58,902 nucleotides of DNA from NCBI GenBank assembly GCA_947385775.1, contig CANDMI010000015.1, positions 1-58,902 of the forward strand. Direction: 5' to 3'. Position 1 is the first letter of the stretch; every line of letters starts with the position of its first letter. Below, piece after piece: positions 5,836 to 34,560 of the stretch. A program made the position numbers and the translations under genes. This DNA is from an uncultured Eubacterium sp. (lineage in GTDB: Bacteria > Bacillota > Clostridia > Lachnospirales > Lachnospiraceae). The notes under the pieces are model-generated. The model saw only the letters and a list, made by a program, of their open reading frames with translations. It made no database searches and was not told the origin of the DNA.

Positions 5836-6094
5836 ACCGGACGCTTGGAGAGGGGATTTGCCCGGCCTGGCTGGGGCCATTCCAGAATGCAAGAAGTTCT
5901 AAGTATTCTGCGTTTCGTTTTCACTGCCGGACGGACGCGTCGCCCAATCCGCTCTGGCTTACGCCAGAAGCGAAAGGCTCCGCTCACGGCTTCGCCGCCT
6001 GGTTTTCAGACAGAATACTAAGATCTTCTATACATTCTTCCATACGCCCAATCCAGACCGGGCAAATCCCCTCTCCAGGCTGTTTTTCATAAGC
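5836..6094 (-). repeat. Large palindromic element, copy A (inverted orientation)
   Basis: This is one of five copies of a roughly 260-275 bp element with nested inverted repeats. In its own orientation (minus strand) it starts GCTTATGAAAAACAGCC and ends GCGTCCGGTT. The outer arm carrying GGAGAGGGGATTTGCCCGG pairs with its complement at the far end. A middle arm with AAGAATGT and CATTCT pairs next. The GC-rich centre (GGCGGCGAAGCCG, CGTCCGTCCGG) is nearly invariant between copies. Flanking bases 6095-6117 are shared with the flank of copy D. Reading frames across it are artefacts of the palindrome. Confidence 0.8.
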
Positions 6095-6379
6095 GCTGCG
6101 ACAAAATTTTATACGTAAATTCTATTAGGCAGGTAAAATTTTGTTTTTCTCACGGTATATTATACCCGTAAGCGAAATGATTTGTCAGTGGAGTGTCGGC
6201 ATTTCAACAGAAGAAGCAAATCATTTGGCAAATAAGTATGTTCGTGAGTATAAATCCTGCGCACTATTTAAAAGTTATTTCTGGCCAGTGCCTTAGCTGT
6301 ATAAATATTAAAATGATGCACATTAAGCGTGGAAAACCATTTGAATAAAGGAGAAAGGCTGTAGCGTTATTTTGTATAA
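6095..6379. other. Spacer between inverted palindromic copies A and B
   Basis: This is AT-rich DNA without a gene. It holds an AAATGATTTG/CAAATCATTT inverted pair (about 6177-6228) and a lone TTCGTGAGTATA at 6240-6251, which matches one end of the 91-bp repeat family seen at 29845 and 45406. The phrase GTAAGCGAAATGATTTG also occurs in the spacer between copies C and D, so the two spacers may be related. Confidence 0.5.
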
Positions 6380-6650
6380 GCTATGAAAACCAGCCGGGAT
6401 ATGGGGAATTGGCCTGGCTTTTGGTGACGTATGGAAGAATGTTAGAAGCCCTTAGCATCCTGCATGATAACCAGGCGGCGAAGCCGTAAGCGGCGCCTTT
6501 AGCTTCTGGCGTAAGCCAGAGCGGACTGGGCGCCGCGTCCGTCCGGTTGTGAAAATGTAAAAGCAGGATGCTTAGGGCTTCTTGCATTCTGGAGTTGGAA
6601 CCGGAAGCCAGGCCAGTTTCCCATATCCCAGCGTCCGGTTTTGCAAATGT
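6380..6650 (+). repeat. Large palindromic element, copy B
   Basis: This copy runs opposite to copy A. Its outer arm (GGGATATGGGGAATTGGCC) differs from the arms of A, D and E, yet it is still matched by the complementary GGCCAGTTTCCCATATCCC at its far end, with G-T pairs at most. The central GC-rich core is conserved. It lies just upstream of the first lacI-type gene, so its transcript could include the hairpin. Confidence 0.8.
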
Positions 6651-6701
6651 GTTTATAAAAAAGAAATAAACAGGAAAGGATTATAAAAAAGGGGGAAATC
6701 T

Positions 6702-7709
6702 ATGCAAAAAGTAAGGTTAGCGGACATCGCGCAAAAGCTTGGCGTCAGCACGGTGACGGTGCATAACGCGCTCTGCGGCAGGAAAGGCGTAAGCGAAGCC
6801 CTGCGGGAGCGGATACTACAGGCTGCCAGCGAAATGGGCTATGAAGCGCCAGCCGGGGGGGTGAAAAAGAAAGACGCGCAAAACGCCTGGAATATCGGGG
6901 CGCTCATTGCGGAAAACTTTCTGGCCCAGTACGAAACCTATTACTGGAAGCTGTACCAGGAGTTTGCAAAACTGGCTGTGGAAAAAAACTGCAATACGGT
7001 AGTGGACGTGTTGAAAAAAGAGGCGGAGCGCCGTACGCTTGAGATACCACAGGCGTTTTTGGAAACGGAGCCGGATGCCATAGCGGTCATCGGGGAAATT
7101 GATATCCGCTATATCCGTATGCTAAAGAGCCGGATGCAGGTTCCAATGGTGTATATCGACTTTTATAATCATGAAATTGCGGATGACGCGGTCGTTGCGG
7201 ATAATTTTTACGGAATGTGCCAGATGACCGAGCTTTTATTTGAATGCGGGCTGGAGCGGCTTGCGTTTGTGGGTTCTGTGGACGCGTCGGCTTCCATTAT
7301 GGACCGTTATCTTGGGTTTATGCGCGCGATGATCGCACGCCACAGAACCGTGCCGCCGGAATGGGTGATCCGCGACCGGGATGAAATGGGAAAGCTTGGG
7401 GTGGAGCTGCCAAAGCATATGCCCCAGGGGTTTGTCTGCAATTGCGACCTGGCGGCGGAAATGGTCATAGACAAGCTGGAAGCGGCGGGCTATCGGGCGC
7501 CGGAGGATATTTCGGTGGTGGGCTTTGATAATTTTGTGCTCAAAGGATGCAGGGAGCGGGGCATTACGACTTATGAAATAGACCGTAAAGCGATGGTAAA
7601 AACAGCCCTGGACAAGCTTATAAAGCAGCTGCGCACCCCAGGCAGAAAGCAGTCCTGCCAGATCATATCCGGGCAGATTCGATGGAAAAACAGTGTAAGG
7701 AAGATATAA
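6702..7709 (+). CDS. LacI-family transcriptional regulator (first of two paralogues)
   Basis: This DNA-binding regulator probably senses a manno-oligosaccharide or mannose phosphate. The N-terminal helix-turn-helix (residues 3-50, LADIAQKLGVSTVTVHNAL) has HN where most members have SK or SR. Residues about 60-330 form the periplasmic-binding-like effector domain. It is 335 residues, a normal length. It shares unusual phrases with the second LacI at 18246 (for example YYW.LYQ after the hinge, and DNF near the end), so they are paralogues. A GGGGGAAA ribosome site precedes the ATG. Its targets are inferred from context only. Confidence 0.9.
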   Translation: MQKVRLADIAQKLGVSTVTVHNALCGRKGVSEALRERILQAASEMGYEAPAGGVKKKDAQNAWNIGALIAENFLAQYETYYWKLYQEFAKLAVEKNCNTVVDVLKKEAERRTLEIPQAFLETEPDAIAVIGEIDIRYIRMLKSRMQVPMVYIDFYNHEIADDAVVADNFYGMCQMTELLFECGLERLAFVGSVDASASIMDRYLGFMRAMIARHRTVPPEWVIRDRDEMGKLGVELPKHMPQGFVCNCDLAAEMVIDKLEAAGYRAPEDISVVGFDNFVLKGCRERGITTYEIDRKAMVKTALDKLIKQLRTPGRKQSCQIISGQIRWKNSVRKI

Positions 7710-7739
7710 AAACGATGTTGGAAAAGGAAATAGATTAAG

Positions 7740-7820
7740 GCGTTGGATTTTCTTTAAGCTAAAATTAATTCTATTTAATAGATTAATTTTTGAATTAAGT
7801 AAAAATCCAACGCTTTTTTT
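7740..7820 (+). terminator. Long terminator hairpin with an operator-like inner arm
   Basis: GCGTTGGATTTT (7740-7751) pairs with AAAATCCAACGC (7802-7813), followed by seven T. The inner part also pairs (AAAATTAAT with ATTAATTTT) and contains GAATTAAGTAAAA, the motif repeated before other operons of the locus. It ends the lacI transcript and may also serve as an upstream regulatory site for the transporter genes. Confidence 0.75.
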
Positions 7821-7893
7821 GTGGTATATTCACAAAAAATAAATAAAAAAATAATGTAAATAAACGAAATTGCTGGCGAAGTAAAAAAGGGGA

Positions 7894-7921
7894 TTGAAAA
7901 ATAAAGTAAATATGATAAAAT
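7894..7921 (+). promoter_or_regulatory. Probable promoter and operator of the transporter operon
   Basis: TTGAAA (7894-7899) and TAAAAT (7916-7921) are 16 bases apart. The sequence TTTAATTAAGCTTGAAAC (7921-7938) follows immediately, an operator-like variant of the motif seen at the other promoters of the locus. The -10 box is weak, so the exact position is uncertain. Confidence 0.4.
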
Positions 7922-7975
7922 TTAATTAAGCTTGAAACGGGCTAAATAATAAGAAAAAAATAGGAGGAAAAAACT

Positions 7976-9427
7976 ATGAAAAAGAAGTTGCTTAGCTTAG
8001 GGTTAGTAGCAGCGATGACCGTATCTTTAGCAGCCTGCGGCGGCAAGGAAGCGGCAAAAAAAGACGATGGCGGTGATAAGCAGGAAAAAGCGCTGCCAAC
8101 AATTGACGCGATCAACGGGGATGATTACAAGGATCTGAAAGCGGACATTAAAATCCTTACCAACCGGACGGATATTGTGGACGACGTATACAAGGGGTAT
8201 GCAGACGAATTTCATAAACTGTATCCGAATATTACCGTTACATATGAAGGCATTACCGATTACGCGGAATCCGTAACGCTGCGGCTTACAAACGGCGACT
8301 GGGGCGACATCTGCTTTATACCGGATACGGTAGAAAAAAAGGAGTTTCCGAATTACTTCATTCCGCTGGGCGATTATGCGAAGATGAACGAAAAGTACAA
8401 TTTCGTAACCGAAAAGACCTTTGACAATACCGTATATGGGGTTCCAAACGGCGGTACCGCAGGCGGCGTTGCTTACAACAAAAAGGTTTGGAAAGAAGCG
8501 GGCGCGTTAAAGGAGGATTCGGACGGCAATGCGATCCTTCCAAAGACGCCGGATGAGTTTTTAGAGGCGTTGGAGCTGATTAAGAAAAACACAAAAGTGG
8601 AAGCGCCACTGTATACAAACTTTGCGGCAGGCTGGACGATGGGCGCATGGAACGATTATGTAGGGATCGCGTCTACGGCTGACCCGGATTATAAAAATAA
8701 CCGCCTGCTCCATACAAAAGACCCGTTTACAAAGAACGATGAAATGAGCGGCCCGTATGCGGTATACTATACACTGTATGAAGCGGTAGCCAGAAAGCTG
8801 GTGGAAGAAGATCCGGCTTCCAGCGACTGGGAATCCTCCAAGGCAAAGATCAATAACGGAGAGATCGCGACGATGGTGCTTGGTTCCTGGTGCGTACAGC
8901 AGTTTAAGGACGCAGGCGAAAATAAAGACGATATCGGCTATATGCCGTTCCCGATTACCATAGGCGGAAAACAGGCGGCGTCTTCCGGCGGTAACTACGC
9001 ATACGCGATCAACAACCAGTCTTCTGTAGACAACCAGATCGCGTCTATGCTTTATGTAAAATGGCTGATCGAGGATTCTACGATATTCGCGGACGAAGGA
9101 TCGATCCCGGCGTTAAAAGGCGAGCCGCTTCCAGATGCTCTGGCGGAGTTTGAAGGCGTGGAACTGTTATCTGACAATGCGCCGGCGGAGGGCGAAGAAA
9201 ATCTCTATGACGATATCCGTATGAAAGCGGAAGTATTAAGCGGCGATGCGCCGGTAACAACAGTTGTGGAAGCGGCGCTGTACGACTCCCAAAAGCTGGA
9301 AGATTTAATGGGCGAATGGAATGAAAAATGGACATCCGCGCAGGAGAGCGAAGGGGCGGAGATTAAATATAATGCAGACGGCTCTGCTATTGGAGGCGGA
9401 GAAGACGCTGACAGCAGCGCGGAATAA
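7976..9427 (+). CDS. ABC transporter solute-binding lipoprotein for manno-oligosaccharides
   Basis: This is the extracellular binding protein of a family 1 carbohydrate ABC importer. The lipoprotein signal ends in LAAC with Cys21 as the lipidation site, followed by a charged linker and a two-lobed binding domain. It is 483 residues. A strong AGGAGG precedes the ATG. It is followed by two permease genes, and its position in the locus matches the mannan-oligosaccharide binding protein of Roseburia intestinalis. Substrate specificity is inferred from context. A stable hairpin between it and the next gene would allow higher expression of the binding protein than of the permeases. Confidence 0.92.
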   Translation: MKKKLLSLGLVAAMTVSLAACGGKEAAKKDDGGDKQEKALPTIDAINGDDYKDLKADIKILTNRTDIVDDVYKGYADEFHKLYPNITVTYEGITDYAESVTLRLTNGDWGDICFIPDTVEKKEFPNYFIPLGDYAKMNEKYNFVTEKTFDNTVYGVPNGGTAGGVAYNKKVWKEAGALKEDSDGNAILPKTPDEFLEALELIKKNTKVEAPLYTNFAAGWTMGAWNDYVGIASTADPDYKNNRLLHTKDPFTKNDEMSGPYAVYYTLYEAVARKLVEEDPASSDWESSKAKINNGEIATMVLGSWCVQQFKDAGENKDDIGYMPFPITIGGKQAASSGGNYAYAINNQSSVDNQIASMLYVKWLIEDSTIFADEGSIPALKGEPLPDALAEFEGVELLSDNAPAEGEENLYDDIRMKAEVLSGDAPVTTVVEAALYDSQKLEDLMGEWNEKWTSAQESEGAEIKYNADGSAIGGGEDADSSAE

Positions 9428-9463
9428 AAACAGTGGCGGAACAATTCGCCAACGGGCATAAGA

Positions 9464-9499
9464 AATCCCGCAGGCAGGCGTATGCCTGCCCTGCGGATT
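9464..9499 (+). other. Intercistronic hairpin between binding protein and permease
   Basis: AATCCCGCAGGCAGGC pairs nearly perfectly with GCCTGCCCTGCGGATT around a four-base loop. No T tract follows, so it looks like an mRNA-stabilising or processing element rather than a full terminator. A smaller hairpin (GGCGGAACAATTCGCC, about 9436-9451) precedes it. Confidence 0.6.
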
Positions 9500-9516
9500 C
9501 GTAGAAAGGAGAAAAC

Positions 9517-10452
9517 ATGAGTGGGAAAACACAAAAAAAGCTTGTAGTGATCACTTTTATGTTTGTGCCGCTGCTGCTTTTGCTGGTATTTACATACATT
9601 CCTTTTGCAGAAATGGTAGGCTTTAGCTTTTACGATATGAAATACATCGGCGAGCGGGAATTTGTGGGACTTAAAAACTACCAGGAAGTGTTCCAGCGTA
9701 CGGAAATCTTTAAATCGCTTCTGGTCAGCCTTTACTATATGGGCGGCGGCGTAGTGCAGCTTGCGTTAGCTTTGTTTTTTGCAACCATGATGGTATTTAA
9801 GGTAAAAGGGGAATCCTTCTTTAAGGCGTCCTTATTCTTCCCGTATCTGATCTGTGGTATTGCGATCGGTTTTATTTTCAAGTTTTTCTATGCCAGGGGA
9901 TTCGTACTGGATTCCATTTTACAGTTGTTTGGCATGAATCTGGACGATATTCCGTTATGGCTCCAGGATAAAAAGATTAATAATATTTCACTTGCGGCCA
10001 CGTCCGTATGGCGTTATACAGGGCAAAACGTAGTGCTTTTCCTTGGCGCGATGATGTCGGTAGACAAAGATCTTTACGAAGCGGCTTCCTTAGACGGGGC
10101 AAACCGCTGGCACCAGTTCCGTTATATCATCCTGCCAAGCATCAAATCCATTATCGTGCTGAACATTATCCTTTGCGTCAGCGGCTGCTTAAGCGCGTTC
10201 GAGCCGCCATACGTTATCACAAACGGTACGATGGGCACCGGCACCTATTTCGTAATCATGAACCGTATCGCCCATGAAAACCAGCGTGTCGGCCTTGCCT
10301 GCGCGATGGCGGTTGTGCTGCTGATTATCATTATCCTGTTTACCATCGGCCAGCAGCTGTTCTTTAAATACGTATTTAACGATGGGACGGAGGATGAGTC
10401 CAGGGCAGCGGTAAAACAGAAAAAATTACAGGCGAAAGGGGGAAAAGCCTGA
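9517..10452 (+). CDS. Sugar ABC transporter permease, MalF-like
   Basis: This is the first integral membrane subunit of the oligosaccharide importer, 311 residues with about six membrane helices beginning at residue 8. The cytoplasmic EAA loop that docks the ATPase is present (EAASLDGANRWHQF, about residues 188-201). It overlaps the next permease by one base (TGATG), so the two are translationally coupled. No ATP-binding subunit gene is found in the locus, so a shared MsmX-type ATPase encoded elsewhere probably powers it, as is common for Firmicute sugar importers. Confidence 0.92.
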   Translation: MSGKTQKKLVVITFMFVPLLLLLVFTYIPFAEMVGFSFYDMKYIGEREFVGLKNYQEVFQRTEIFKSLLVSLYYMGGGVVQLALALFFATMMVFKVKGESFFKASLFFPYLICGIAIGFIFKFFYARGFVLDSILQLFGMNLDDIPLWLQDKKINNISLAATSVWRYTGQNVVLFLGAMMSVDKDLYEAASLDGANRWHQFRYIILPSIKSIIVLNIILCVSGCLSAFEPPYVITNGTMGTGTYFVIMNRIAHENQRVGLACAMAVVLLIIIILFTIGQQLFFKYVFNDGTEDESRAAVKQKKLQAKGGKA

Positions 10453-11297
10453 TGAAGATGAAAAGAAGTATCGGCGGAATGATATTTGACGTATTCAAAT
10501 ACGTTTCCTTAATTGTAGCTTCGATCATAGCGCTGGTTCCGGTAGTTGTCTGCGTGCTGACCGCGTTTAAGACGAATGAAGAATGGGAAACTACATCGGT
10601 GCTGACCATGCCGAAATCCTTTCTTTATTTTGAGAATTTTAGGATGGCAATGGAAAAAGCCAATATGCTTCGCTGCTTTATGAATACGGCCCTCGTATTG
10701 CTGGTAGTGCTTACCGTTACCGTATTTACCGGCTCCATGTTGGCATACGCGTTAAACCGTTTTAAATTTCCTGGAAGCGGCCTGGTGCAGAGCTTATTCC
10801 TGTTTGCTTCCCTGCTTCCTGGCATCGCTATGCAGGTTACGATTTACCAGATCATGTACAATTTGGGGCTGATCAATCATTTGTATGGATACATGATCGT
10901 GCTGATGGGGACGGATATTATATCGATTTACATTTTCCTCCAGTTTTTTGAGAACCTTCCGACCTCGTTGGACGAATCGGCGATCATTGACGGATGTACG
11001 TATTTTGGCGTGTTTTTTAGGATCTTATTCCCGCTGTTAAAACCGGCCATCATGACAAGCCTTGTATTAAAGGGTGTAAGCGTGTATAATGAATACTATG
11101 CATCCAACCTGTATTTGAATAAGCCGGAATTAAAGACGATTTCTACGGCGCTGTATACATTTACAGGCCCTTATGGAAACCAGTACAATTATATCTGCGC
11201 GGGGGTTTTAATCACCATTATCCCGATTCTGGTATTCTTCCTTGTATTCCAGAAACAGGTATATAGCGGCATGGCTTCCGGCGCGGTTAAGGGGTAA
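10452..11297 (+). CDS. Sugar ABC transporter permease, MalG-like
   Basis: This is the second membrane subunit, 281 residues with about six helices. The EAA-type loop reads ESAIIDGCTYFGVFFRI (about residues 176-192). It is translationally coupled to the first permease. Together with the lipoprotein at 7976 it forms the importer for mannan breakdown products. Confidence 0.92.
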   Translation: MKMKRSIGGMIFDVFKYVSLIVASIIALVPVVVCVLTAFKTNEEWETTSVLTMPKSFLYFENFRMAMEKANMLRCFMNTALVLLVVLTVTVFTGSMLAYALNRFKFPGSGLVQSLFLFASLLPGIAMQVTIYQIMYNLGLINHLYGYMIVLMGTDIISIYIFLQFFENLPTSLDESAIIDGCTYFGVFFRILFPLLKPAIMTSLVLKGVSVYNEYYASNLYLNKPELKTISTALYTFTGPYGNQYNYICAGVLITIIPILVFFLVFQKQVYSGMASGAVKG

Positions 11298-11330
11298 GAA
11301 ACGCGGACAGAATTAAAAATTACGGATTCA

Positions 11331-11376
11331 AAATTAAAATGGCACGGTATACGCGCGCAAGCGGTATGCTGTGCCT
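11331..11376 (+). other. Imperfect hairpin between permease and epimerase genes
   Basis: GGCACGGTATACGC and GCGGTATGCTGTGCC form an imperfect stem around GCGCAA. No strong T tract follows. It may modulate read-through into the phosphorolysis genes, but this is only a possibility. Confidence 0.35.
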
Positions 11377-11413
11377 AGTATACTATATTGTATAGGAAGC
11401 AGGACAAGGAATT

Positions 11414-12589
11414 ATGAGAAAATTTGTGGAAGAGATTAAAACCCATCTGATAAATGAGCTGATCCCGTTTTGGGAGGGGCTTAAGGATGAAGAGTACGGC
11501 GGCTATTATGGCTATATGGGGTATGACTTAAAAGTCGATAAAACGTACGAAAAAGGCTGTATTTTAAATAACCGGATCTTATGGTTTTTCAGCAACGCGT
11601 ATATGCTGCTTAAATATACGCATTTAAAGGAAGCCGCGGATCATGCCTTTCGTTTTTTAAAGGAGCGCTGTATCGACGAAACGTATGGAGGGGTGTACTG
11701 GTCTTTGACTTATGACGGAAAGCCGAAGGATACGACGAAGCATACGTATAATCAGGCGTTTGCGATTTACGCACTTTCTTCCTATTATAACGCGGTGGAA
11801 AACGAAGAAGCGCTGGAGCTTGCGCTCCGTATCCGTGACAGAATCGAAGAAAAATGTACGGACATCGACGGCTATTACTTAGAAGCCTTTGACCGCATGT
11901 TCCAGCCGCAGGAAAATGACAAACTGTCAGAAAACGGCGTGCTGGCGGAAAAGACGATGAATACGCTGCTGCACGTGTTTGAAGCTTATACCGAGCTGTA
12001 CCGAGTAAGCCATGACGCGAAAACCGGAGGGCGGCTGCGGTTTATGCTGGATACGGTTGCAAACAAAGTATACAATAAGGAGCTGGGCAGGCAGGAGGTG
12101 TTTTTTGACAAGGACTGGAACAGCCTAATCGACCTGTATTCTTACGGGCATGACATAGAAGCCGCCTGGCTGATCGACCGGGGGTTAGATGTGCTTGGAG
12201 ATCCGATATATACCGGAAAAATCGCCCCGATAACGGAAACCATTACAAATAATATTTATGAGCGCGCCTATGTGAACCATTCCCTGTTAAACGAAGCGGA
12301 AAACGGCGTGGCGGACACCACAAGGGTCTGGTGGGTGCAGGCGGAAACCATCGTAGGCTTTGTCAATGCCGCGCAAAAACACCCTGGGGAAGAAAAATGG
12401 CTGGACGCGGCGGCGGATGTATGGGATTACATTCAAAAGAATCTGATAGATAAACGGGGTGGCTCGGAATGGTTCTGGTCGGTGGACGAAAACGGCGTGC
12501 CGGATGAAAAGCCGATCGTAGAGCCATGGAAATGCCCGTACCATAACGGCAGGATGTGTATAGAAGTGATCAGGAGGATAGGACAGTGA
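11414..12589 (+). CDS. Mannobiose/cellobiose 2-epimerase (AGE family)
   Basis: This enzyme epimerises the reducing-end sugar of beta-1,4-mannobiose, giving mannosyl-glucose for the adjacent phosphorylase. It has 391 residues of an (alpha/alpha)6 barrel, typical of the N-acylglucosamine/cellobiose 2-epimerase family. Recognisable segments are [15 protein letters not shown] and a C-terminal [10 protein letters not shown], which supply the usual conserved histidines. Its last four bases (GTGA) contain the start of the next gene. The coupling to a GH130_1 gene makes mannobiose the likely natural substrate. An older label would be AGE-family epimerase. Confidence 0.9.
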
Positions 12590-13758: not shown

Positions 13759-13809
13759 AACGCATCCGCCCTTAAGCGAATTTTTTACAGGAATGCAGGG
13801 GGATAAGGC

Positions 13810-14481
13810 ATGGGTTATATCAGGAAATGGGCGGAGGACATTAAAGTAAAAACAAAGGGCATGAACAGGGAAGCCAGGGCAGAGTATGTGATGAACTATT
13901 ATTGGTATCACATCCTGCTGGGCGCCCTGTTTATGGGGCTTTTAGCGCTTAGCGTTTATCATGTGACCTGGGGCAGGAAAAAGGTGGATTTTTCCATGGC
14001 GGCGGTCAATCAGGAGGTAAATTACGAGCGGGATGAAAAAATAAGGGACGGTTTTTCCGCGTTTTCCGGCATTCCCGCAAAAAATATGCAGGTGGACTCC
14101 GACTTCCTGATTTCTTATGGCGATGTACAGCTAGAAGGGGTTAACGAAAGCTCCTATGAAAAGTTTTTCTTCAACTGGTCGGCGGGGACGATGGATGCGG
14201 CTGTGATGCCGGAGAGCTTTTACCGATACTGTAAAAAACAAAGGGGCAGGTTTTTAGAGCTTACAAAGTTGCAGCCGCGAGAGGTTTTGGAGGAGCTTGC
14301 CCGGGGGCGTGGGGATTTGTTTTTTATGGATGGCGGAAAATGTATGGGGGTTTATGTGGATGCGACATGCCTGGGCGGAGAATATCAGGAGAATGAATCA
14401 GACCGGTACGTTTTGGTGTTTCCGGGGACGGGAAAGCATGAAGAGGCGGCGGGACGCTTTTTAGAATATGCGTTGCAGTAA
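13810..14481 (+). CDS. Membrane-anchored protein of unknown function, partner of the YesL-type gene
   Basis: This protein has 223 residues. A basic amphipathic start (KWAEDIKVKTKG) is followed by one membrane helix at about 37-55 and a C-terminal domain predicted to lie outside the cell. I recognise no catalytic motif. It sits between the phosphorylase and a DUF624 gene, with a GGGGATAAGG ribosome site. Similar single-span proteins often accompany YesL genes in Lachnospiraceae sugar loci, which suggests a role linked to uptake or envelope organisation. That role is inference; the function is not known to me. Confidence 0.7.
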   Translation: MGYIRKWAEDIKVKTKGMNREARAEYVMNYYWYHILLGALFMGLLALSVYHVTWGRKKVDFSMAAVNQEVNYERDEKIRDGFSAFSGIPAKNMQVDSDFLISYGDVQLEGVNESSYEKFFFNWSAGTMDAAVMPESFYRYCKKQRGRFLELTKLQPREVLEELARGRGDLFFMDGGKCMGVYVDATCLGGEYQENESDRYVLVFPGTGKHEEAAGRFLEYALQ

Positions 14482-14510
14482 TAAATAATTTAAAGAGGGA
14501 GGAAAATAAT

Positions 14511-15146: not shown

Positions 15147-15224
15147 TAGGCGGGTAAGGGATTTTACTGCTCATCGATTTTGGCATTCCTTATTGATTTA
15201 TATTCTGACTGGAAGGAGCGGGAT

Positions 15225-15873: not shown

Positions 15874-15888
15874 TGGAGGAAAAAAAGA

Positions 15889-17607: not shown

Positions 17608-17613
17608 TTAAAA

Positions 17614-21519: not shown

Positions 21520-21550
21520 GCCCCTCTCCAAGCGTCCGGTTAGCGAAAAC
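21520..21550 (+). repeat. Fragment of the large palindromic element
   Basis: CCCCTCTCCAAGCGTCCGGT matches the right end of copies D and A. The rest of the element is absent, so this is a truncated copy between the phosphorylase and the CE2 gene. Confidence 0.65.
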
Positions 21551-21604
21551 GTATATTATATACAAAATAATAACAGCACATACATTCATTAAAAGGAGGC
21601 CCCC

Positions 21605-25130: not shown

Positions 25131-25150
25131 GTGTTTACACCTAAACCATC
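25121..25150 (+). terminator. Perfect 14-bp hairpin ending the isomerase operon
   Basis: GATGGTTTAGGTGT (25121-25134) pairs perfectly with ACACCTAAACCATC (25137-25150) around TT. The stem includes the last codons and stop codon of the isomerase-ROK gene. Only a weak T-rich tail (AATCTTTATTT) follows, so termination strength is uncertain. Confidence 0.6.
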
Positions 25151-26263: not shown

Positions 26264-26598
26264 CAGCCGCGCAGCATTCAAACCATAAAAAAATACCACA
26301 ATTTAACTCTTGCCATATCCCATTCCAAACGATATAGTTGACCTTGTAATATTTCCCACATATCCATGTGCAAATGCTCATGGGCGGGCTGGACGGCGAT
26401 ACGGTGGGTCGGAAATCTGGTAGAAGGCGCGACAATCAGGCAGGATTGAAAATGCCGCATTTCACAGCAACAGATAAGCATTTCACGGCAATTGAATTGT
26501 TTCAGAATTTTGTACCGGTTATACTCAAAAGAACGTATTTGTCAAATGATCTGCGGCTTTATAGCTTGTAATTTTTGCGGACAAAGGGAGGTGGCGCA
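26264..26598. other. Intergenic region with an unexplained minus-strand reading frame
   Basis: A minus-strand frame (about 26278-26481, possibly starting further upstream) reads through segments such as HEHLHMDMWEILQGQLYRL and YRLEWDMARVKLWYF, a composition like a real protein rather than a shadow. It has no good ribosome site and I cannot assign it to a family. It may be the tail of a degraded gene. No terminator is clear. Confidence 0.3.
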
Positions 26599-27303: not shown

Positions 27304-28638
27304 ATGGGTTTATGTATGGGGGCAGGCGGGATGGATGCATATTTAGATTTATTTAATATTTATATTATGGGTGTGGTTGAAACGGTTATCCAGTTATATT
27401 TCCTGGCAAAAATATTAAAAAAGAAGGTATGGCCTCCGGTTTATTTCCTGTTTGCGGTATGTGCGGTGATCCTGAATGAGTTTATGCCAGTCAACACGAT
27501 CATTGGTTTTGTGGCGCTTGTTTTGATGATCACGGCGTTTGGGAAATTTGCCTGCCATTCGGATTTTAAGTCCTCCTTTTTGTATGCGGCCCTGTCGATT
27601 GAATTTATGCTGCTTTGTTATGGGCTTTTAAACTCCCTGATCAGCCTGTTTCATCCGTGGCTGCCGGAGGTTTTTTATACGAACGGCATCGCGGTTATGT
27701 TGATCAGCGAGATCGCGTCGCTGGCGCTGTCCGGGCTTTGTTATTATGTGGTATACCGTTATTTTTCCTGCTATACCAAAGATCAGATGCAGCAAATGTT
27801 TCTGGTGATCATCCCGGTTTTGATGATATTTATTATGAGTGAATACATTTCCGTTGTGGAGTTTCAGTATGAGATTTATATGGATGATGGCCCTTCCGGG
27901 TACCTGTTAAACCGTGGGCAGATGATTGTCATGTATTTTTTGGGGCTTGCCAGCCTGTTTTGCATCCTGTTTTCTTATAAGAAAATTCAGCAGAATTTTT
28001 TCCTTCGCACGAAATTATCCCTGCTGGAACAAGAGGAGCATTCCTTGAATCTTTATGTGGAGGAAGCAAAGGCCCGGTACGACGAGACAAGGGCGTTTCG
28101 CCATGATATCAAAAACCACATCACGGTGGTAAAAGAGCTTTTACAGGGCGGGAAGCTGGAGGAGGCGGCAGGCTATATCGAGGATATGGACGATATGGCG
28201 GAGAGGATGTCATTTCCATGCAGCACCAATAACCCGGTAGTGGATATCCTTTTGGGAAACAAGCTTGGGATTGCCAAAAGCATGGGGGTTCATGTGGACT
28301 GTTCCCTGCTTTTGCCGTATCCATGCGGCCTTAGGGATATTGATATCTGCATTGTGCTGTCGAATGCTTTGGACAATGCGATCCACGCGTGTAAAAATAT
28401 GGATGCCGGTATGGAAAAATATATCCGGGTTTCCGGGCGCATCCAGGGGGATTTTCTGATGGTGGAGGTGCGTAACAGCTTTCGTGGAAAAGGGGCGTTT
28501 AAAAAAGGGACGGGGTTGTCTAATATTAAAGCGGTGGCTGAAAAATATGGCGGCGCTATGAGCATTGAAACGGGAGAGGGGGAGTTTGTGCTACAGGCGC
28601 TTTTGATCATTCCACAGCAGCATGGGGGCGTAAAATGA
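27304..28638 (+). CDS. GHKL-type sensor histidine kinase (AgrC/ComD-like)
   Basis: This protein has up to 444 residues. About six membrane helices lie within residues 15-225, followed by a dimerisation helix with His267 in FRHDIKNH and a GHKL ATPase domain with NALDNAIHA and GTGLSNIKA. This is the architecture of quorum-peptide sensors such as AgrC. It starts right after the response regulator stop; the ATGs at 27304, 27313 and 27331 are all possible. Its last four bases (ATGA) contain the start of a 42-codon gene. Confidence 0.88.
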   Translation: MGLCMGAGGMDAYLDLFNIYIMGVVETVIQLYFLAKILKKKVWPPVYFLFAVCAVILNEFMPVNTIIGFVALVLMITAFGKFACHSDFKSSFLYAALSIEFMLLCYGLLNSLISLFHPWLPEVFYTNGIAVMLISEIASLALSGLCYYVVYRYFSCYTKDQMQQMFLVIIPVLMIFIMSEYISVVEFQYEIYMDDGPSGYLLNRGQMIVMYFLGLASLFCILFSYKKIQQNFFLRTKLSLLEQEEHSLNLYVEEAKARYDETRAFRHDIKNHITVVKELLQGGKLEEAAGYIEDMDDMAERMSFPCSTNNPVVDILLGNKLGIAKSMGVHVDCSLLLPYPCGLRDIDICIVLSNALDNAIHACKNMDAGMEKYIRVSGRIQGDFLMVEVRNSFRGKGAFKKGTGLSNIKAVAEKYGGAMSIETGEGEFVLQALLIIPQQHGGVK

Positions 28639-28763
28639 ACGATTTAAAAGAATTAGGAAAAATGATGAAAGAACATCCGGTGATGATCGTCGTAACGTTG
28701 GCGGCGATGATGGCAGGCGCGGCATTAGGTGCGATAGCGTATTATCAGGGATGGTTAGGATAA
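28635..28763 (+). CDS. Small single-span membrane peptide coupled to the sensor kinase
   Basis: This is a 42-residue protein. A charged start (MNDLKELGKMMKEHP) is followed by a hydrophobic helix (VMIVVTLAAMMAGAALGAIAYY) and a short tail. The ATG shares its last bases with the kinase stop (ATGA), so it should be translated by coupling. There is no cysteine and no AgrB-like gene nearby, so a cyclic signalling peptide is unlikely. It could be a regulator of the kinase or an envelope microprotein. The function is unknown. Confidence 0.6.
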   Translation: MNDLKELGKMMKEHPVMIVVTLAAMMAGAALGAIAYYQGWLG

Positions 28764-28820
28764 TTAACTTAGGATGATTAACATAAGGAAGCGATTGGAT
28801 AAAATGATAGGAGGCGGATC

Positions 28821-29573
28821 ATGGAGCTTGTAAAACTGACCCATGAAAATATAGAAAAGGAGCACATCTGCTGTGCGATCTCAAGCAAAGATATGCAGGC
28901 CATATCCAAAAAGAATTGGTTAAAAGGCAGGTTAGACGAGGGGCTTGTGTTTTTAAAGGGCAATGTCCGGGGGAAATGTTTTATTGAATATATCCCTGCG
29001 GAATACGCTTGGGCGCCGATTCAGGCGGAGGGCTATATGTACATAGACTGCTTGTGGGTGTCCGGGCAGTTCAAAGGGCATGGATACGCAAACCTCCTGC
29101 TGGACGCGTGTATCCGGGACAGTAAAACGAAAGGAAAAAAGGGGCTTGTGATTTTATCCTCCAAAAAGAAAATGGGGTTCCTTTCAGACCCCAAATTTAT
29201 GAGCTACAAGGGATTTCAGATTGCGGATACGGCAGAGCCTTATTTTGAGCTGATGTTTTTGCCCTTTGCAGAAAACGTCCCGCGTCCCCGCTTTCGGGAC
29301 AGTGTGCGCGGCCAGGAAACTATGCCTGGGGGATTTGTGCTGTATTACACGAACCAATGCCCTTTTACGGCGAAGTATGTGCCGATGCTTGAGGATATGG
29401 CAAAAGACAGGAAGGTGGAATTTCGGGCGGTGCATATAAAGGACAGGGAGGATGCGCAGAATGCGCCCTCGCCTTTTACGACATTTTCACTTTTTTATGA
29501 CGGGCAGTTTGTGACGCATGAAATTTTGTCGGAGAAGAAGTTTGAGAAAATTTTAGTGGGGAAGGGGAAATAA
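28821..29573 (+). CDS. GNAT acetyltransferase with C-terminal YoaP-like domain
   Basis: This protein has 250 residues. The GNAT fold covers residues about 1-150, with the coenzyme A loop region around QFKGHGYANLLL. From about 170 a thioredoxin-like YoaP domain follows, with the CPFTAKYVPMLED helix and PSPFTTFSLFYDG. The substrate of this family is not established. The ribosome site is AGGAGGCGG at 28810-28818. It appears to be a single-gene unit bounded on the right by repeats. Confidence 0.82.
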   Translation: MELVKLTHENIEKEHICCAISSKDMQAISKKNWLKGRLDEGLVFLKGNVRGKCFIEYIPAEYAWAPIQAEGYMYIDCLWVSGQFKGHGYANLLLDACIRDSKTKGKKGLVILSSKKKMGFLSDPKFMSYKGFQIADTAEPYFELMFLPFAENVPRPRFRDSVRGQETMPGGFVLYYTNQCPFTAKYVPMLEDMAKDRKVEFRAVHIKDREDAQNAPSPFTTFSLFYDGQFVTHEILSEKKFEKILVGKGK

Positions 29574-29585
29574 GTTTATTGATAA

Positions 29586-29844
29586 TCGGACGCTGGGAGA
29601 TGGGGAACTGGTCTGGCCCCCGGCTCCAATTCCAGAATGTAAGAAGCGCTAAGCATTCTGCATTTACATTTTTACAGCCGGACGGACGCGGCGCCTAGTC
29701 CGCTCAGGCTGCGCCGGGAGCTAAAGGCGCCGCTTACGGCTTCGCCGCCTGGTTATCAAGCAGAATGCTAAGCGCTTCTAACATTCTTCCATACGTCGCC
29801 GGAAGCCAGGCCAGTTCCCCATCTCCCGGCTGGTTTTCATAAGC
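29586..29844 (-). repeat. Large palindromic element, copy C (inverted orientation)
   Basis: In its own orientation (minus strand) it starts GCTTATGAAAACCAGCC and ends AGCGTCCG. The outer arm (GGGAGATGGGGAACTGG on one side) has a sequence different from A, D and E but is complementary to its own far arm (CCAGTTCCCCATCTCCC). The middle arm with AAGCGCT and AGCGCTT is also specific to this copy and paired. The GC-rich core is conserved. Confidence 0.8.
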
Positions 29845-29935
29845 TATACTCACGATCACTAAAATTTGCCAATAACGCGACTCACGAGCGTTGTTATCTT
29901 GAGTCATATGGTAAACTTTATCGCTCGTGAGTATA
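29845..29935. repeat. 91-bp inverted-repeat element, copy 1
   Basis: Terminal inverted repeats TATACTCACGA and TCGTGAGTATA are perfect over 11 bases. The left half (CACTAAAATTTGCCAATAAC) matches, in inverse orientation, the element at 45406-45496, which has the same 91-bp length. It looks like a small non-autonomous mobile or structured repeat and abuts palindromic copy C directly. Confidence 0.65.
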
Positions 29936-30114
29936 AAATATAAAATCATATCCATTACTTTACAGTTTTTTTACCTGTAAGCGAAATGATTTGCGATAAC
30001 TACACATTAAGATTTGCGGGTATTTATGATCGCGGACGAAAAAGGTTTTCGCTTGTGGGAGAAAAACATAATATCACCTGCTGATAGAAATAACGTATAA
30101 AAATTTGTCGTAAC
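29936..30114. other. Spacer between palindromic copies C and D
   Basis: This is AT-rich and gene-free. It contains GTAAGCGAAATGATTTG, as in the A-B spacer. The stretch just left of copy D (about 30094-30114, CGTATAAAAATTTGTCG) matches the inverse of the stretch right of copy A. Confidence 0.45.
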
Positions 30115-30384
30115 GCTTGTGAAAACCAGCCTGGAGAGGGGATTTGCCCGGCCTGGCTGGGGCGTATGTAAGAATGCTTAGAGGTTCTTAGTATTCTGAG
30201 TGAAAACCAGGCGGCGAAGCCGTAAGCGGCGCCTTTAGCTTTGGCGCAGCCGGGGCGGACTAGGCGCCGCGTCCGTCCGGCAGTGAAAACATAAAAGCAG
30301 AATATTTAGAACCTCTTACATTCTGGAGTGGCCCCAGTCAGGCCGGGCAAATCCCCTCTCCAAGCGTCCGGCTAGTTCCAAATG
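30115..30384 (+). repeat. Large palindromic element, copy D
   Basis: It starts GCTTGTGAAAACCAGCC and ends GCGTCCGGCTAGTTCCAAATG. The outer arms GAGAGGGGATTTGCCCGGCC and GGCCGGGCAAATCCCCTCTC are perfectly complementary over 20 bases. A middle arm (TTAGAGGTTCTTA with TTTAGAACCTCTT) pairs next. The central core is shared with the other copies. Confidence 0.8.
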
Positions 30385-30429
30385 TATACCTTATATCAAG
30401 AAAAAAGAACAGAAACAAGGAGGAAAAAA

Positions 30430-30600
30430 ATGCATCATATCTACATTCGCGCAATCATTGGCATAATCTGGCTTGCCGCCGCGATCGTCTGCGGCATAAC
30501 AGACAACTTTTCCATGATGGGCCTTTATATCGTTTTATCAGCCGTTTTTTTATATTCCGCATACGCACAGTGGAAAAAAGGCGGCAAAGGGGGAAAGTAA
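30430..30600 (+). CDS. Small two-span membrane protein
   Basis: This protein has 56 residues. Two hydrophobic helices (about 6-22 and 28-45) are followed by a lysine/glycine tail. The start at 30430 is set by AAGGAGG nine bases upstream. It lies one base before an ABC ATPase gene and so is co-transcribed with the transporter. I do not recognise the family; a small accessory subunit is possible. Confidence 0.7.
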   Translation: MHHIYIRAIIGIIWLAAAIVCGITDNFSMMGLYIVLSAVFLYSAYAQWKKGGKGGK

Positions 30601-30601
30601 T

Positions 30602-31315
30602 ATGAAAGAAGCGCTGCTTACCGCCATCAATCTAAGCGCATGGTATCAGGACAGGAACGATAAAAAAATACTTTCCGATTTTTCCTTTGAGCTGGCAGAC
30701 CATGAAGCGGCGGGCCTGATCGGCCTAAACGGGGCCGGGAAAACGACGTTTTTAAAGACGCTTTCCGGCCTGCTTGACACTTTCCTTGCAGAGCGCGTCT
30801 GCTTTTGCGGCGTGCCTGTGGATTTTCAAAATCAGGATTTTAAACGCTGCCGCTATACGGTGTTCGCCGAGGACGATTCCTTTTCGTATTTTACCTTCCG
30901 GGAGTATCTTTCTTACGTATGCGCCGCCTATGGAAAAGAAACGCCGGATGTGTCGGAGCTGGTGCGGGGCTTTCATTTTGAAGCATATGCGGATGCTTTG
31001 CTAAAGGAGCTGTCCACCGGAAACCGGAAAAAAGCGTTTCTGATTACGGCATTTGCCCTAAAGCCCAGGCTGCTGCTTTTGGATGAACCGGTGAACGGGC
31101 TGGATTTTCAGAGTACGGAATATCTGTACCGGCAGATTTCGGGATATAAGGAGTATGGAACCGTGCTGTTTTCTTCCCATATTTTAGAGAGCGTCACACT
31201 GACCTCTGACCGGGTATTCGTTTTAGAGGGCGGAAAGATCAGCCGGACATTCGAGCGCGGGCAGATAAACGCTGCGGTTATCAGGGAGGCTTTGCATGAT
31301 GAAAATGACAGCTAA
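30602..31315 (+). CDS. ABC transporter ATP-binding protein
   Basis: This protein has 237 residues with Walker A GLNGAGKTT, a signature LSTGNRKK that departs from the usual LSGGQ, and Walker B LLLLDEPVNG. It is the ATPase of an ABC-2 type exporter whose membrane subunit follows with a 20-base overlap. The substrate is unknown. The downstream two-component system may regulate it. Confidence 0.88.
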   Translation: MKEALLTAINLSAWYQDRNDKKILSDFSFELADHEAAGLIGLNGAGKTTFLKTLSGLLDTFLAERVCFCGVPVDFQNQDFKRCRYTVFAEDDSFSYFTFREYLSYVCAAYGKETPDVSELVRGFHFEAYADALLKELSTGNRKKAFLITAFALKPRLLLLDEPVNGLDFQSTEYLYRQISGYKEYGTVLFSSHILESVTLTSDRVFVLEGGKISRTFERGQINAAVIREALHDENDS

Positions 31316-32528
31316 AGCCTTTGCGAAAAAGCTGTTTGGGACAAAATACGAGAGGCTGACAAGGGCTTTTTTAATCGATATCGTTGTATTTTGGGGGCTG
31401 TATATAGCGGGTTACCGGGTGCGGGTGGCGTCTTCTGTGGGATATTTCATGGTCAGCGCATTTACCGCCGGTGTAATGTGGCAGGCCCTTTCTTCTAAGG
31501 ATAATGCCGTAGAGCTGCGGCATATGCTGATGCTGCCGTATCAGCGTATGGAGTTTGTTTTTTCCTATGTCGCTGTGCTTTTGGCATACGCAGTTGTTAC
31601 AAAGGCGGGGCTGCTTTTGGCGGCGCTATTTGCGGTTTCGGATTGGAATCCGGTGTGGAACCCGATAAAAGCCATCGGAATGGTGGTTTGTATGGTTCAT
31701 GCGGCGCTTATGGCTGCCGCGGTTTTTTCTTTGAGAAAATACTGGTATGCGGGCATTGTCTGGGCGGCTTTTTTGGCGGGGGCCATATTTCTTTTGGGAG
31801 ACAGATTGTTTCTTTTGGTATTGCTGCTGATTTTTAGCGGCATGTCTGCCGTCCTGGTTTTATGTAGAGCAGACGCATATGTTTTTTATGAACGGGAGGG
31901 GAAGAGGGGGAGTAGGAAAAATTATGCCCTTAGGCAGCGGAAAAAGGTTTCCATCTGGCGGTATTTTTTCCGGTATTTTGTTTGCCATAAAAATTATATG
32001 TTTAATACGGTCGTAATGTGGTGCATAGCCCTCGTACTGCCGTATTTTTTAAAAGAATTAGCCGGACTTTCCGTTATGCCGATGGGATTTGCGCTTTTAT
32101 CTTTAAACACGCCGATTTGCATCCTGCTGTCCTGTGACCGCGCGCTGGAGCAGGCGGTGCGCTTCCTGCCCGGGCAAAAAAATGCGTTCTGTATTCCTTA
32201 CTGCCTGTTTATATTCCTTTGCAATATGGCTGCGGATGTGATATTCTGTTGCAGCTGGCAGATACAAAACGGCGGCGTAACGGCGTTTGCGATTGCAGGG
32301 GCGGTTTTCTTTGCCTTACAGAGCGCGGTATGGTCGGTATTGCTGGAATGGCATTTTCCCATCCGGGGCTGGAAGATTGAAAGCGACCTGTGGCATCATC
32401 CGCGCAAATATGCGGTTCCTTGCGGAATGCTTCTGATTGCCGGGGCTGTGGCGGCCTTTCCGGCGTTACTGCCTGTGCTGCTGGCAATACTGGCGGCGGA
32501 AATCGCGGTTATATTGTTTATACGTTAA
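31296..32528 (+). CDS. ABC-2 type membrane subunit
   Basis: This protein has 410 residues with ten to twelve hydrophobic segments and a basic cytoplasmic loop (EREGKRGSRKNYALRQRKK) near the middle. It overlaps the ATPase gene by 20 bases, so it is its partner. No closer family could be named. The two could export a lipid, peptide or antibiotic. Confidence 0.78.
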   Translation: MMKMTAKAFAKKLFGTKYERLTRAFLIDIVVFWGLYIAGYRVRVASSVGYFMVSAFTAGVMWQALSSKDNAVELRHMLMLPYQRMEFVFSYVAVLLAYAVVTKAGLLLAALFAVSDWNPVWNPIKAIGMVVCMVHAALMAAAVFSLRKYWYAGIVWAAFLAGAIFLLGDRLFLLVLLLIFSGMSAVLVLCRADAYVFYEREGKRGSRKNYALRQRKKVSIWRYFFRYFVCHKNYMFNTVVMWCIALVLPYFLKELAGLSVMPMGFALLSLNTPICILLSCDRALEQAVRFLPGQKNAFCIPYCLFIFLCNMAADVIFCCSWQIQNGGVTAFAIAGAVFFALQSAVWSVLLEWHFPIRGWKIESDLWHHPRKYAVPCGMLLIAGAVAAFPALLPVLLAILAAEIAVILFIR

Positions 32529-32579
32529 AGGGCATTATGCCTGTTCTGCGGCCAAGGTACAGGAGGGGGACAGTTTGAT

Positions 32580-33269
32580 ATGAAAATTTTATTGGTGGAA
32601 GACGATCTGGAAATCAGCGCTATGTTAAAAAACTTTCTAATGACGGAAAATTATGAAGTCGTTACCGCGTCTGACGGGGAAAGCGCCTGTGGGAAATTTT
32701 TTTCCGATACATTCGATCTGGTATTGCTGGACTTGATGATACCGAAAAAAAACGGCATGGAGGTTATGGGCCGGATTCGGGAAGCAAGTACGGTTCCCAT
32801 AATCATCCTGTCGGCAAAAGACACGGATTCCGACAAAACCCTGGGACTTGGGCTGGGGGCGGATGATTATATTACCAAACCGTTTTCCGTTACGGAAGTG
32901 TTAGCGCGTATCAAAGCCAATATCAGAAGGACGACCCAATATGACGGAAACGCCTCCACGCGGCGGGAGGTTATAACAAAAGGCGCCCTGACTATGGATC
33001 TGAATGATTATTCCGTAAAAAAGCAGGGGAAAGAAATCGAGCTTACGGCAAAAGAGTTTGATATTTTAAAATTGCTGCTGCAAAATCCAAGGAAGGTATA
33101 TACAAAGGAACAGATCTATTCCCTTGTATGGAACGACGCGTACCTCGGGGATGAAAACGCGGTCAATGTCCATATCAGCAGGCTTAGGACGAAAATAGAG
33201 GACAACCCCCGTGAACCGAAATATATCCTCACCGTCTGGGGCATCGGGTATAAGGCGGGGGATTTTTAA
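32580..33269 (+). CDS. OmpR/PhoB-family response regulator
   Basis: This protein has 229 residues. The receiver domain has Asp51 in VLLDLMIPKK and the conserved Lys in DDYITKPFS. The C-terminal winged helix occupies about 130-228 (LTAKEFDILKLLLQNP, then NVHISRLRTKI). It is followed after one base by its sensor kinase. Its place between two ABC transporters suggests it controls one or both, as in bacteriocin- and antibiotic-response modules. Confidence 0.92.
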   Translation: MKILLVEDDLEISAMLKNFLMTENYEVVTASDGESACGKFFSDTFDLVLLDLMIPKKNGMEVMGRIREASTVPIIILSAKDTDSDKTLGLGLGADDYITKPFSVTEVLARIKANIRRTTQYDGNASTRREVITKGALTMDLNDYSVKKQGKEIELTAKEFDILKLLLQNPRKVYTKEQIYSLVWNDAYLGDENAVNVHISRLRTKIEDNPREPKYILTVWGIGYKAGDF

Positions 33270-33270
33270 T

Positions 33271-34206
33271 ATGGGCGGCGAGGCACAGGCCGTTATCTTT
33301 CTCCTTTTGGTTGTAATCGCAGCGCTGGTTTTCGTTATCCTGTACCAGCGGTTTTCATTTGGAAGGGGGATTCAGGCGAATTTAAAGCAGGTCAGCCGCA
33401 AATTAGAAGAGATTTCCGGGTCTGACAGCGATGAAAAGGTCATGGTATTTACCGACAGCCCGGCCCTGATGGAGCTAGAGGGGGAGATCAATGGGCTGCT
33501 GCTTGACCGCCAGAAAGTAAAGGCAGATTTTAAACGGGGCGAGCTGGCTTTGAAAAAAATGCTGGCAAACGTTTCCCATGACATCAAAACGCCTCTGACG
33601 GTGATTCTGGGCTATCTGGAGATCATGCGCCTTGCCGATTCGGATAACGAAATGCTCTTAAAGGTAGAGGCGAAAGCAAAACAGTTGATGGAGCTGACCG
33701 GGCAGTTTTTCACGCTGGCAAAGCTTGAGGCGGGGGATGCGGACATCACCATTGCCAAAATCGATGTAAGCGAGATATGCAGGGAAAGCGCCCTTGGTTT
33801 TTATGAAATTTTATTGCAGAAGGATTTTGAGGTGGAAATATCCATACCAGACGGGGCGGTATACGCCCGGGGCGATCAAAACGCGTTGCAGCGGATTTTA
33901 TACAATCTGCTGTCAAACGCAGTCCGGTACGGCGGCGACGGAAAGTATATCGGGATATTTTTGAGGGAGGATAAAGGAGGCGTATGGATTGACATAACGG
34001 ATAAGGGCAAAGGGATTGAAAAGGAATTTACGGACTGCATATTCGAGCGGCTCTATACAATGGAGGATTCCAGAAATCGGGAAGTCCAGGGCAACGGCCT
34101 GGGGCTTACGATCGCAAAAAGCCTGGCTGTTTCCATGGGGGGCGGGATTTCCGTGGACAGCGTGCCGGGGGTTCAGACCACATTTACGGTTAGGCTGAAA
34201 AAATAA
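33271..34206 (+). CDS. Sensor histidine kinase (HisKA type)
   Basis: This protein has 311 residues. One N-terminal membrane helix (about 5-24) lacks an obvious external sensor domain. The phospho-acceptor is His103 in VSHDIKTPLT, with the N box NLLSNAVRYG, DKGKGI and GNGLGLTIA. Such intramembrane-sensing kinases commonly partner ABC transporters. The start at 33271, one base after the regulator stop, is preferred over an earlier ATG inside the regulator gene. Confidence 0.9.
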   Translation: MGGEAQAVIFLLLVVIAALVFVILYQRFSFGRGIQANLKQVSRKLEEISGSDSDEKVMVFTDSPALMELEGEINGLLLDRQKVKADFKRGELALKKMLANVSHDIKTPLTVILGYLEIMRLADSDNEMLLKVEAKAKQLMELTGQFFTLAKLEAGDADITIAKIDVSEICRESALGFYEILLQKDFEVEISIPDGAVYARGDQNALQRILYNLLSNAVRYGGDGKYIGIFLREDKGGVWIDITDKGKGIEKEFTDCIFERLYTMEDSRNREVQGNGLGLTIAKSLAVSMGGGISVDSVPGVQTTFTVRLKK

Positions 34207-34220
34207 CTTTTTCATACATG

Positions 34221-34258
34221 CTAACCGAACGCCGGGAGATGGGAAACTGGCCTGGCCA
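34221..34258 (-). repeat. Fragment of the large palindromic element
   Basis: CCGGGAGATGGGAAACTGGC resembles the left arm of copy C and ends abruptly before copy E. It is a truncated, inverted copy. Confidence 0.6.
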
Positions 34259-34287
34259 AAAGGAAAAGCGTACAAATAGGACATAAT

Positions 34288-34560
34288 GCTTGCGATAACC
34301 AGCCTGGGGAAGGGATTGGTCCGGCCTGGCTGGGGCGTTTGGAAGAATGTTTAGAAGTTCTTAGTATTCTGCCTAAAAACCAGGCGGCGAAGCCGTAAGC
34401 GGCCCCTTTAGCTGCTGGCGGCAGCCAGAGCGGATTGGGCGCCGCGCCCGTCCGGTTGTGCAAACATAAATGCAGAATACGTAGAACTTCTTACATTCTG
34501 GAATGGCCCCAACCAGGCCGGACCAATCCCTTCCCCAAGCGTCCGGTTATTTCCAAATGT
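34288..34560 (+). repeat. Large palindromic element, copy E
   Basis: It starts GCTTGCGATAACCAGCC and ends GCGTCCGGTTATTTCCAAAT. The outer arms GGGGAAGGGATTGGTCCGG and CCGGACCAATCCCTTCCCC are perfectly complementary although the sequence differs from copies A-D at several positions. The core hairpin CTGGCGGCAGCCAG is present. Confidence 0.8.

Follow-up and report, generated by a model that had tools for sequence, protein, structure and literature searches.

Paired palindromes in the window

The window analysed here is a stretch of 58,902 nucleotides from an uncultured Eubacterium sp. (Lachnospiraceae; GenBank assembly GCA_947385775.1, contig CANDMI010000015.1, positions 1 to 58,902), and its long dispersed palindromes are our subject. 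An original prediction, made from the letters alone, had described five palindromic copies with a shared core and outer arms that differ from copy to copy while remaining complementary within each. All five are present, at 5837–6092 (−), 6381–6645 (+), 29584–29841 (−), 30117–30380 (+), and 34290–34555 (+), and the arm pairs quoted as complementary read as stated. Beyond that prediction, we found that the copies are of two unlike kinds, D and B, which pair convergently, and that they make up two whole elements and one damaged element.

In each whole element, one D and one B palindrome stand head to head with about 280 bp between them. The D copies (at 5837, 30117, and 34290) carry the outer arm GGAGAGGGGATTTGCCCGG or a variant of it, and the B copies (at 6381 and 29584) carry GGGATATGGGGAATTGGCC or a variant. 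Element 1 has the order D−/B+. A decayed outer terminal repeat at 5804–5826 (GGCGGTTTAAAAAGGTGTTACAT; recognised by visual comparison with GTAACGGTTTAGATAAGGTGTTAT in copy L003) lies to the left of its D palindrome, which shows 88% identity to the D copy at 30117; the interior (6093–6380) is followed by the B palindrome, assigned by sequence comparison and folding, with a CGTCC tag read at its outer base (6632–6636, +). Element 2 has the order B−/D+, with a B palindrome of 89% identity to the B copy at 6381, an interior at 29842–30116, and a D palindrome again assigned by sequence comparison and folding. No open reading frame (ORF) of at least 80 amino acids occurs in either interior; the longer interiors of relatives were examined in part. 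In element 3, the D palindrome at 34290 (86% identity to the copy at 30117) is adjoined only by a 34-nt B remnant at 34223–34256 (−; 91% identity over the 34 nt). A further remnant, derived from the outer portion of a D end, lies at 21521–21576 (+), with agreement in all 21 nt of one stretch and in 47 of 60 columns.

We tested the folding of two of the five window copies. For the D copy at 30117, the z-score is -10.6 when folded as DNA and -12.6 when folded as RNA; for the B copy at 6381, folded as DNA, it is -10.0. In each test, none of 200 shuffled sequences folded as well.

Relation to the TwoAYGGAY motif

The original prediction had pointed to Rfam as a place to search. Using laxer filters on short stretches, we found that all five palindromes match RF01731, the TwoAYGGAY motif, with scores of 39.6–52.5 bits, three of them above the cut-off of 43; a scan of the whole window at the gathering score returned only tRNAs. 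The matches lie on the outward-running strand, in element 1 at 5878–6044 (D, −, 40.9 bits, under the cut-off) and 6430–6596 (B, +, 46.4 bits, above), in element 2 at 29628–29793 (B, −, 52.5 bits, above) and 30165–30331 (D, +, 39.6 bits, under), and in element 3 at 34338–34505 (D, +, 44.9 bits, above). Inner stem, internal loops, and fold agree with the 168-position model from end to end, and the host falls within the Clostridiales range of the motif. Unlike RF01731, the window motif is the end module of a paired repeat bounded by terminal inverted repeats, and it continues into a variable, complementary outer stem. The window loops are GAA-like and GTAA-like, and both AYGGAY loops are absent. 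Judged by sequence, the window palindromes are a homologous variant of RF01731 rather than typical members.

The passages of PMC4333381 that treat the motif (Weinberg 2010) describe its outer stem as poorly conserved and give a proposed CsrA role; the GGA loops relevant to that idea are missing in the window variant. In a table from 2010 (PMC2864571), the motif is entered as probably an RNA but not a cis-regulatory one; the Rfam type of RF01731 is cis-regulatory. In the passages of the literature that name TwoAYGGAY, we found no link to mobile elements or to elements bounded by terminal inverted repeats and target-site duplications. Being part of a mobile element is a new setting for a motif catalogued as an RNA without an assigned function.

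A sister subfamily in the window's own genome is also arranged head to head and scored 105–116 bits in the four palindromes scanned, with loops ATGGAT and AGGGAT. When eight loci of relatives and the own genome were searched together with laxer filters, only L046 gave an RF01731 match, indicating that the model, run in this way, does not cover some of the palindromes in relatives. With at most nine candidates scored per genome, RF01731 was found in 45 of 299 family genomes, the own genome included, 43 of them above the cut-off. The 29 loci of other genera comprise four convergent pairs (L243, L254, L256, L259), one tandem (L260), and 24 single palindromes. In 33 palindromes of such loci, the arms past the Rfam model look complementary within each copy, a few of them poorly, and differ from genus to genus. 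Genome G157, from another genus, holds 32 copies, all single (86 of 86 candidates scored), whose arms fall into two similar groups and are not unique to each copy. Of 29 downstream ORFs examined there, 16 share the strand of the RNA and 13 are opposite to it, as by chance; flanking ORFs show no preferred strand, and the placement expected of a cis-regulatory element was not seen in this one genome.

Architecture, ends, and mobility of the family

Searching the own genome (3.98 Mb in 152 contigs) with the D palindrome gave 81 matches, many of which represent the second arm, with the best 40 of 84 candidates scored. With at most 12 candidates scored per genome, matches were present in 8 of 12 other genomes of the same genus and in none of 48 genomes outside it. 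In G003, there were 682 first-look candidates for B, of which the best 40 were scored. An exact pattern recovered at least 120 stretches, all in named contigs from assemblies of uncultured Eubacterium and Eubacteriaceae, and the collected loci include 141 whole or partial matches to two G010-type queries. The plasmids and phages searched gave no match.

Across 172 sequences, neighbouring palindromes less than 4 kb apart were convergent (− then +) in 110 cases and arranged otherwise in 33, mainly fragments or distant neighbours. These counts of pairs, and those of interiors, included duplicates; after removal of duplicate loci, 102 convergent pairs remained, and there were 101 distinct interiors. 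In the own genome, 14 pairs without duplicates join D0 to B0 and none is of the same kind; of two further pairs, one joins D0 to a sister-subfamily palindrome and one joins D0 to a B-type match. The G010-type pairs, likewise without duplicates, comprise 45 D/B and one B/B. In G005, 14 pairs are D5/D5 by best match to a query set that held no B from that genome. Among interiors of at least 260 bp, 36 of 53 match no other and 17 of 53 share only some stretches; genes read in interiors include a transglutaminase-like gene, a GNAT gene, and a third ORF without a Pfam match. By eye, 30–50 bp at the inner flank of each palindrome are conserved.

Of 267 palindromes from the window's genus, 256 have a CGTYC tag around the outer (3') border; fifteen duplicate loci were excluded from this count, and a few G009 doubles stayed in it. 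In other genera, CGTY occurs within 60 nt of 10 of 34 palindromes, including 6 of the 8 in the four convergent pairs. The border motif occurs as a tandem repeat at one edge, inner or outer, of the palindromes at L009, L040, and L161. Tags outside a palindrome base, head-to-head pairs, heterodimers, and the lack of a known dedicated transposase are all features of the CGTC-tagged repetitive extragenic palindromes (REPs) as the relevant passages of PMC3733652 describe them. Those REPs are, however, 20–40 bp long with stems of 8–9 bp (PMC3733652, same passages), whereas the present palindromes span about 260 bp with 59 stem pairs and come with terminal inverted repeats and target duplications.

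A 24-bp end, GTAACAGTTCAGATAGGGTGTTAC, recurs outside the palindromes in the own genome and relatives and is decayed in the window copies. At up to three mismatches, six of its seven matches in the own genome are ends of these elements. The terminal motif is found at up to one mismatch only in the window's own genome among 299 family genomes, and at up to three mismatches in 5 of 13 genomes of the same genus; relatives carry different ends (GTAACAGTTCAGATAGGG, CTAGAGCGAACAAA, GATGTTGGGGTCAAAAGG). Exact 8-bp target duplications (TCAAAACG, AATCATTG, CTTAAGAG) flank 3 of 14 two-ended elements (L184, L027, and L205), and L015 of the own genome gains one (GCCAAAAG) when its left end is extended by 4 bp. 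No target duplication was seen at the window copies. In G157, where both end boxes are present at 10 of 30 loci, duplications of at least 7 bp flank 6 of those 10 copies; with right flanks swapped (500 swaps), the mean was 0.83 and the maximum 3. A single palindrome with AGCTAACAAA-like ends is inserted in another palindrome in G005, with (A)CTAG flanks. The window carries no element at 14240–14501, whereas a relative's locus, L149, has one between the same genes. Five two-palindrome elements with both ends measure 621–713 bp, and those with cargo are longer.

Terminal repeats, target duplications of 8 and 7 bp, an insertion within a palindrome, and many copies in relatives support the suggestion in the original prediction of a hairpin DNA mobile element. 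Like miniature inverted-repeat transposable elements (MITEs), these elements have terminal inverted repeats, target duplications, many copies, no transposase gene in the window elements, and intergenic positions in the cases read; unlike MITEs, they hold two large, unlike palindromes inside their ends, and the ends vary among relatives. Integron attC sites also keep their fold while their complementary arms vary and the adjoining cargo differs, and they stand in tandem arrays beside an integrase; integron-like cassettes were rejected because the pairs observed here are convergent.

Several rearranged copies were also seen. Inverted-repeat elements of 158–159 bp lie within palindrome cores at L156 (4169–4326), L082 (882–1039), and L140 (2944–3102), two of them flanked by CTAG and one by an 8-bp duplication, GCGCCTTT. 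At L184 (1501–1820), a 320-bp derivative fuses the outer halves of both palindromes; its outer arms are unpaired, and its ends and 8-bp duplication are still intact. A tRNA-Glu gene has an element about 90 bp away in each of two species (L006, 850–1400; L202, 6535–6815), possibly one inherited insertion, and at L202 it has shrunk to a fusion of two half palindromes.

Arm covariation and its causes

Covariation is the usual proof of RNA structure, and a family with dozens of copies per genome offers a natural test of whether copying of DNA can produce it. We examined paired changes in two sets of D copies. In 43 copies of relatives that best match the query D10 (40 from G010 (CANDJC01), two from G009, and one from G007), 33 of 77 pairs had changed on both sides, against 13.5 ± 2.0 in shuffles and 6–9 in slid structures; for the outer pairs, the figure was 26 of 33. 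Of the cells in this alignment, 99.2% were paired, compared with 92.7% in shuffles and 38–46% in slid structures. Fifteen of 17 own-genome D copies gave 23 of 82 pairs changed on both sides (shuffles 7.7 ± 1.8, slid structures 2–6), with 96.8% of cells paired. The structures tested were derived from those same alignments, so the slid control favours them generously. Some columns hold all four bases yet always pair; one column pair in 42 B copies reads AT 17, TA 4, GC 5, and CG 16, with no mismatch. Arm covariation, as originally predicted, is real; the refuting outcome named with the prediction, arm changes left uncompensated in an alignment of more copies, was looked for and did not appear. 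In these analyses, ten duplicate loci were excluded from the pairing, nearest-neighbour, D–B likeness, own-genome end-correlation, and per-column counts.

That the pattern arises by chance or from faulty assembly is extremely improbable. The assemblies rich in copies are indeed fragmented, and palindromes stand at the ends of many contigs, but the same build recurs in other genera as well as in several assemblies made independently, and the shuffled and slid controls lie far lower.

The original prediction held that the pattern needs either selection for pairing or a copying mechanism that restores it. Of the two, copying accounts for more of what was observed, and selection probably also acts on the inner stem and core. 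On balance, we think it somewhat more likely than not that these are a gene-less, MITE-like family that bears divergent TwoAYGGAY palindromes, evolving in concert, as its end modules, and for the arms we favour copying between inverted repeats in place over selection on an RNA. The unit would consist of an outer terminal repeat, palindrome B, a short spacer, palindrome D in inverted orientation, and a second outer terminal repeat, with longer versions enclosing unrelated DNA. A transposase acting in trans would have moved the elements, leaving the 8-bp target duplication seen in some copies. Each palindrome would be a divergent RF01731 stem and core extended by 27–33 outer pairs. In well-populated relatives, the outer arms would drift in step, a change in one arm being copied in place to the other, and core changes would be copied within an element from one palindrome to its partner; template switching during replication or gene conversion across the inverted repeats is the likeliest route. 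Selection would keep the inner stem and core sequence, including two T.T mismatches. Template switching that makes and maintains stems is a described process (PMC8794818).

Complementarity might instead be renewed only at transposition, through a hairpin or single-strand intermediate of rolling-hairpin or HUH style, with inserted copies decaying thereafter. The two unlike end palindromes, the head-to-head build, and the CGTYC tag at nearly all outer borders would suit such a route, as would the higher share of outer-pair mismatches in the own genome (7–11%) than in G010 (1–2.4%). Yet in 85 copies, 82 of them from G010, copies with no recognisable terminal repeats were paired as well as the others: mismatches numbered 24 of 1878 outer pairs (1.28%) in the 60 copies without recognisable repeats, 2 of 312 (0.6%) in 10 intermediate copies, and 8 of 486 (1.65%) in the 15 copies with repeats present (rho -0.06, p 0.62). 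No such correlation exists in the own genome either (D, p 0.96; B, p 0.60), though the B10 set leans the expected way (rho -0.26, p 0.10). Pairing is independent of intact ends, and we regard renewal confined to transposition as quite unlikely.

A second line of evidence concerns the cores. In 19 elements of G010, core identity between the D and B palindromes of the same element is 0.914, compared with 0.864 between elements, 0.858 for D–D, and 0.872 for B–B; none of 5000 permutations gave a likeness as high. Ten own-genome elements show 0.826 within and 0.775 between elements. The comparison drew on only 32 of 110 pairs, those in which a D and a B palindrome were both complete. Likeness of D and B cores within an element calls for copying between both palindromes. 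Quasipalindrome correction, as set out in PMC8794818, likewise makes and maintains perfect stems by copying from arm to arm. There it concerns stems of RNA genes and individual reporter sites, whereas the present family has dozens of dispersed copies and a likeness that extends to both palindromes of one element.

The competing explanation, that the TwoAYGGAY palindrome is transcribed, works in place as a structured RNA, and has its stem mutations compensated by selection, was also raised originally. The idea of a structured RNA is half supported, by homology of the core with RF01731. The conserved core and mismatches, the excess of G.T over A.C in G010, and the persistence of pairing in copies without recognisable ends would all agree with such a role. 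Selection for pairing does not, however, predict the D–B likeness, and a stem of 59 pairs ought to tolerate a single mismatch with little effect; even so, the 85 copies contain just 34 mismatches among 2676 outer pairs. Nearest-neighbour double changes comprise 73 transitions and 80 transversions across six sets. The ratio of transitions to transversions is 40:40 for rare changes at unpaired sites and 40:7 for unrepaired single stem changes, so the double changes lie near the former and far from the latter, which argues for a route not mainly via G.T. The loss of the AYGGAY loops in the window copies and the chance-level ORF orientation in G157 also speak against this explanation, which we consider a serious but less likely one.

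Several observations weigh against the copying we favour. In two core sub-regions of the own genome, the within-element D–B likeness is absent (p 0.64 and 0.10), and saturated variable sites could also yield many transversions. In G010 stems, G.T outnumbers A.C by 35:7, as selection on one strand predicts; the G.T excess relative to unpaired sites (26:14 to 21:19) is not significant (p 0.36). Both this excess and the transition-to-transversion ratio are weak evidence, not proof. Two inner-stem T.T mismatches are kept in 43 of 43, 43 of 43, 42 of 42, and 41 of 42 copies; blind copying would erase them, suggesting that the inner stem is probably under selection. In the own genome, uncompensated nearest-neighbour changes outnumber compensated ones (D 22:15, B 22:9, together 44:24), in contrast to 10:40 (D10), 26:36 (B10), 12:28 (D5), and 1:25 (B8) in relatives, and the arm-matching force there would be weak or have stopped. 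Outer arms of the own genome are paired at 93.1% (D) and 89.4% (B), poorer than in relatives, and G.T:A.C in its stems is 13:13, both counted with 83 of 208 hairpins left out as unparsed. A search for orthologues at L027/L038, L126/L145, L149/window, and L006/L202 found one or both flanks in common and no two whole palindromes of certain common descent.

The mobile part of the proposal faces similar difficulties, since 10 of the 14 two-ended elements lack a duplication and no transposase for the family was found among the three families searched (IS66, IS256, and ISL3). IS66 gave no match in G000, G003, G007, G009, or G010, and IS256 and ISL3 are absent from G000, G007, G009, and G010; IS66 is present in G004, G005, G006, and G008. 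As a rule, IS66 ends begin with GTAA; the lack of IS66 matches in those five genomes speaks against an IS66-type MITE. A 575-amino-acid ORF at L200, resembling an IS1634-type transposase, was considered as an autonomous partner and rejected, as it sits in an insertion beside a relic.

A broader proposal is that TwoAYGGAY "RNAs" in general would be the end palindromes of a widespread transposon class, with the CGTCC tag in paired forms; they would be handled in the form of single-stranded DNA hairpins, and strand-switching synthesis would rewrite their arms. RNA-like covariation would then arise without RNA selection. We hold this to be unlikely.

Finally, we noted other repeats in the window. 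A dispersed repeat of about 100 bp (CTCACGAGCG...CGCTCGTGAG) occurs at 29838–29938, forming part of the interior of element 2, and in inverted orientation at 45403–45503, directly upstream of an ORF starting at 45455; the two copies are 80% identical, and another copy breaks a B palindrome at L016 (3090–3185). Two tRNA genes stand side by side at 58724–58796 and 58854–58902, identical over 49 nt, the second being truncated by the end of the window.

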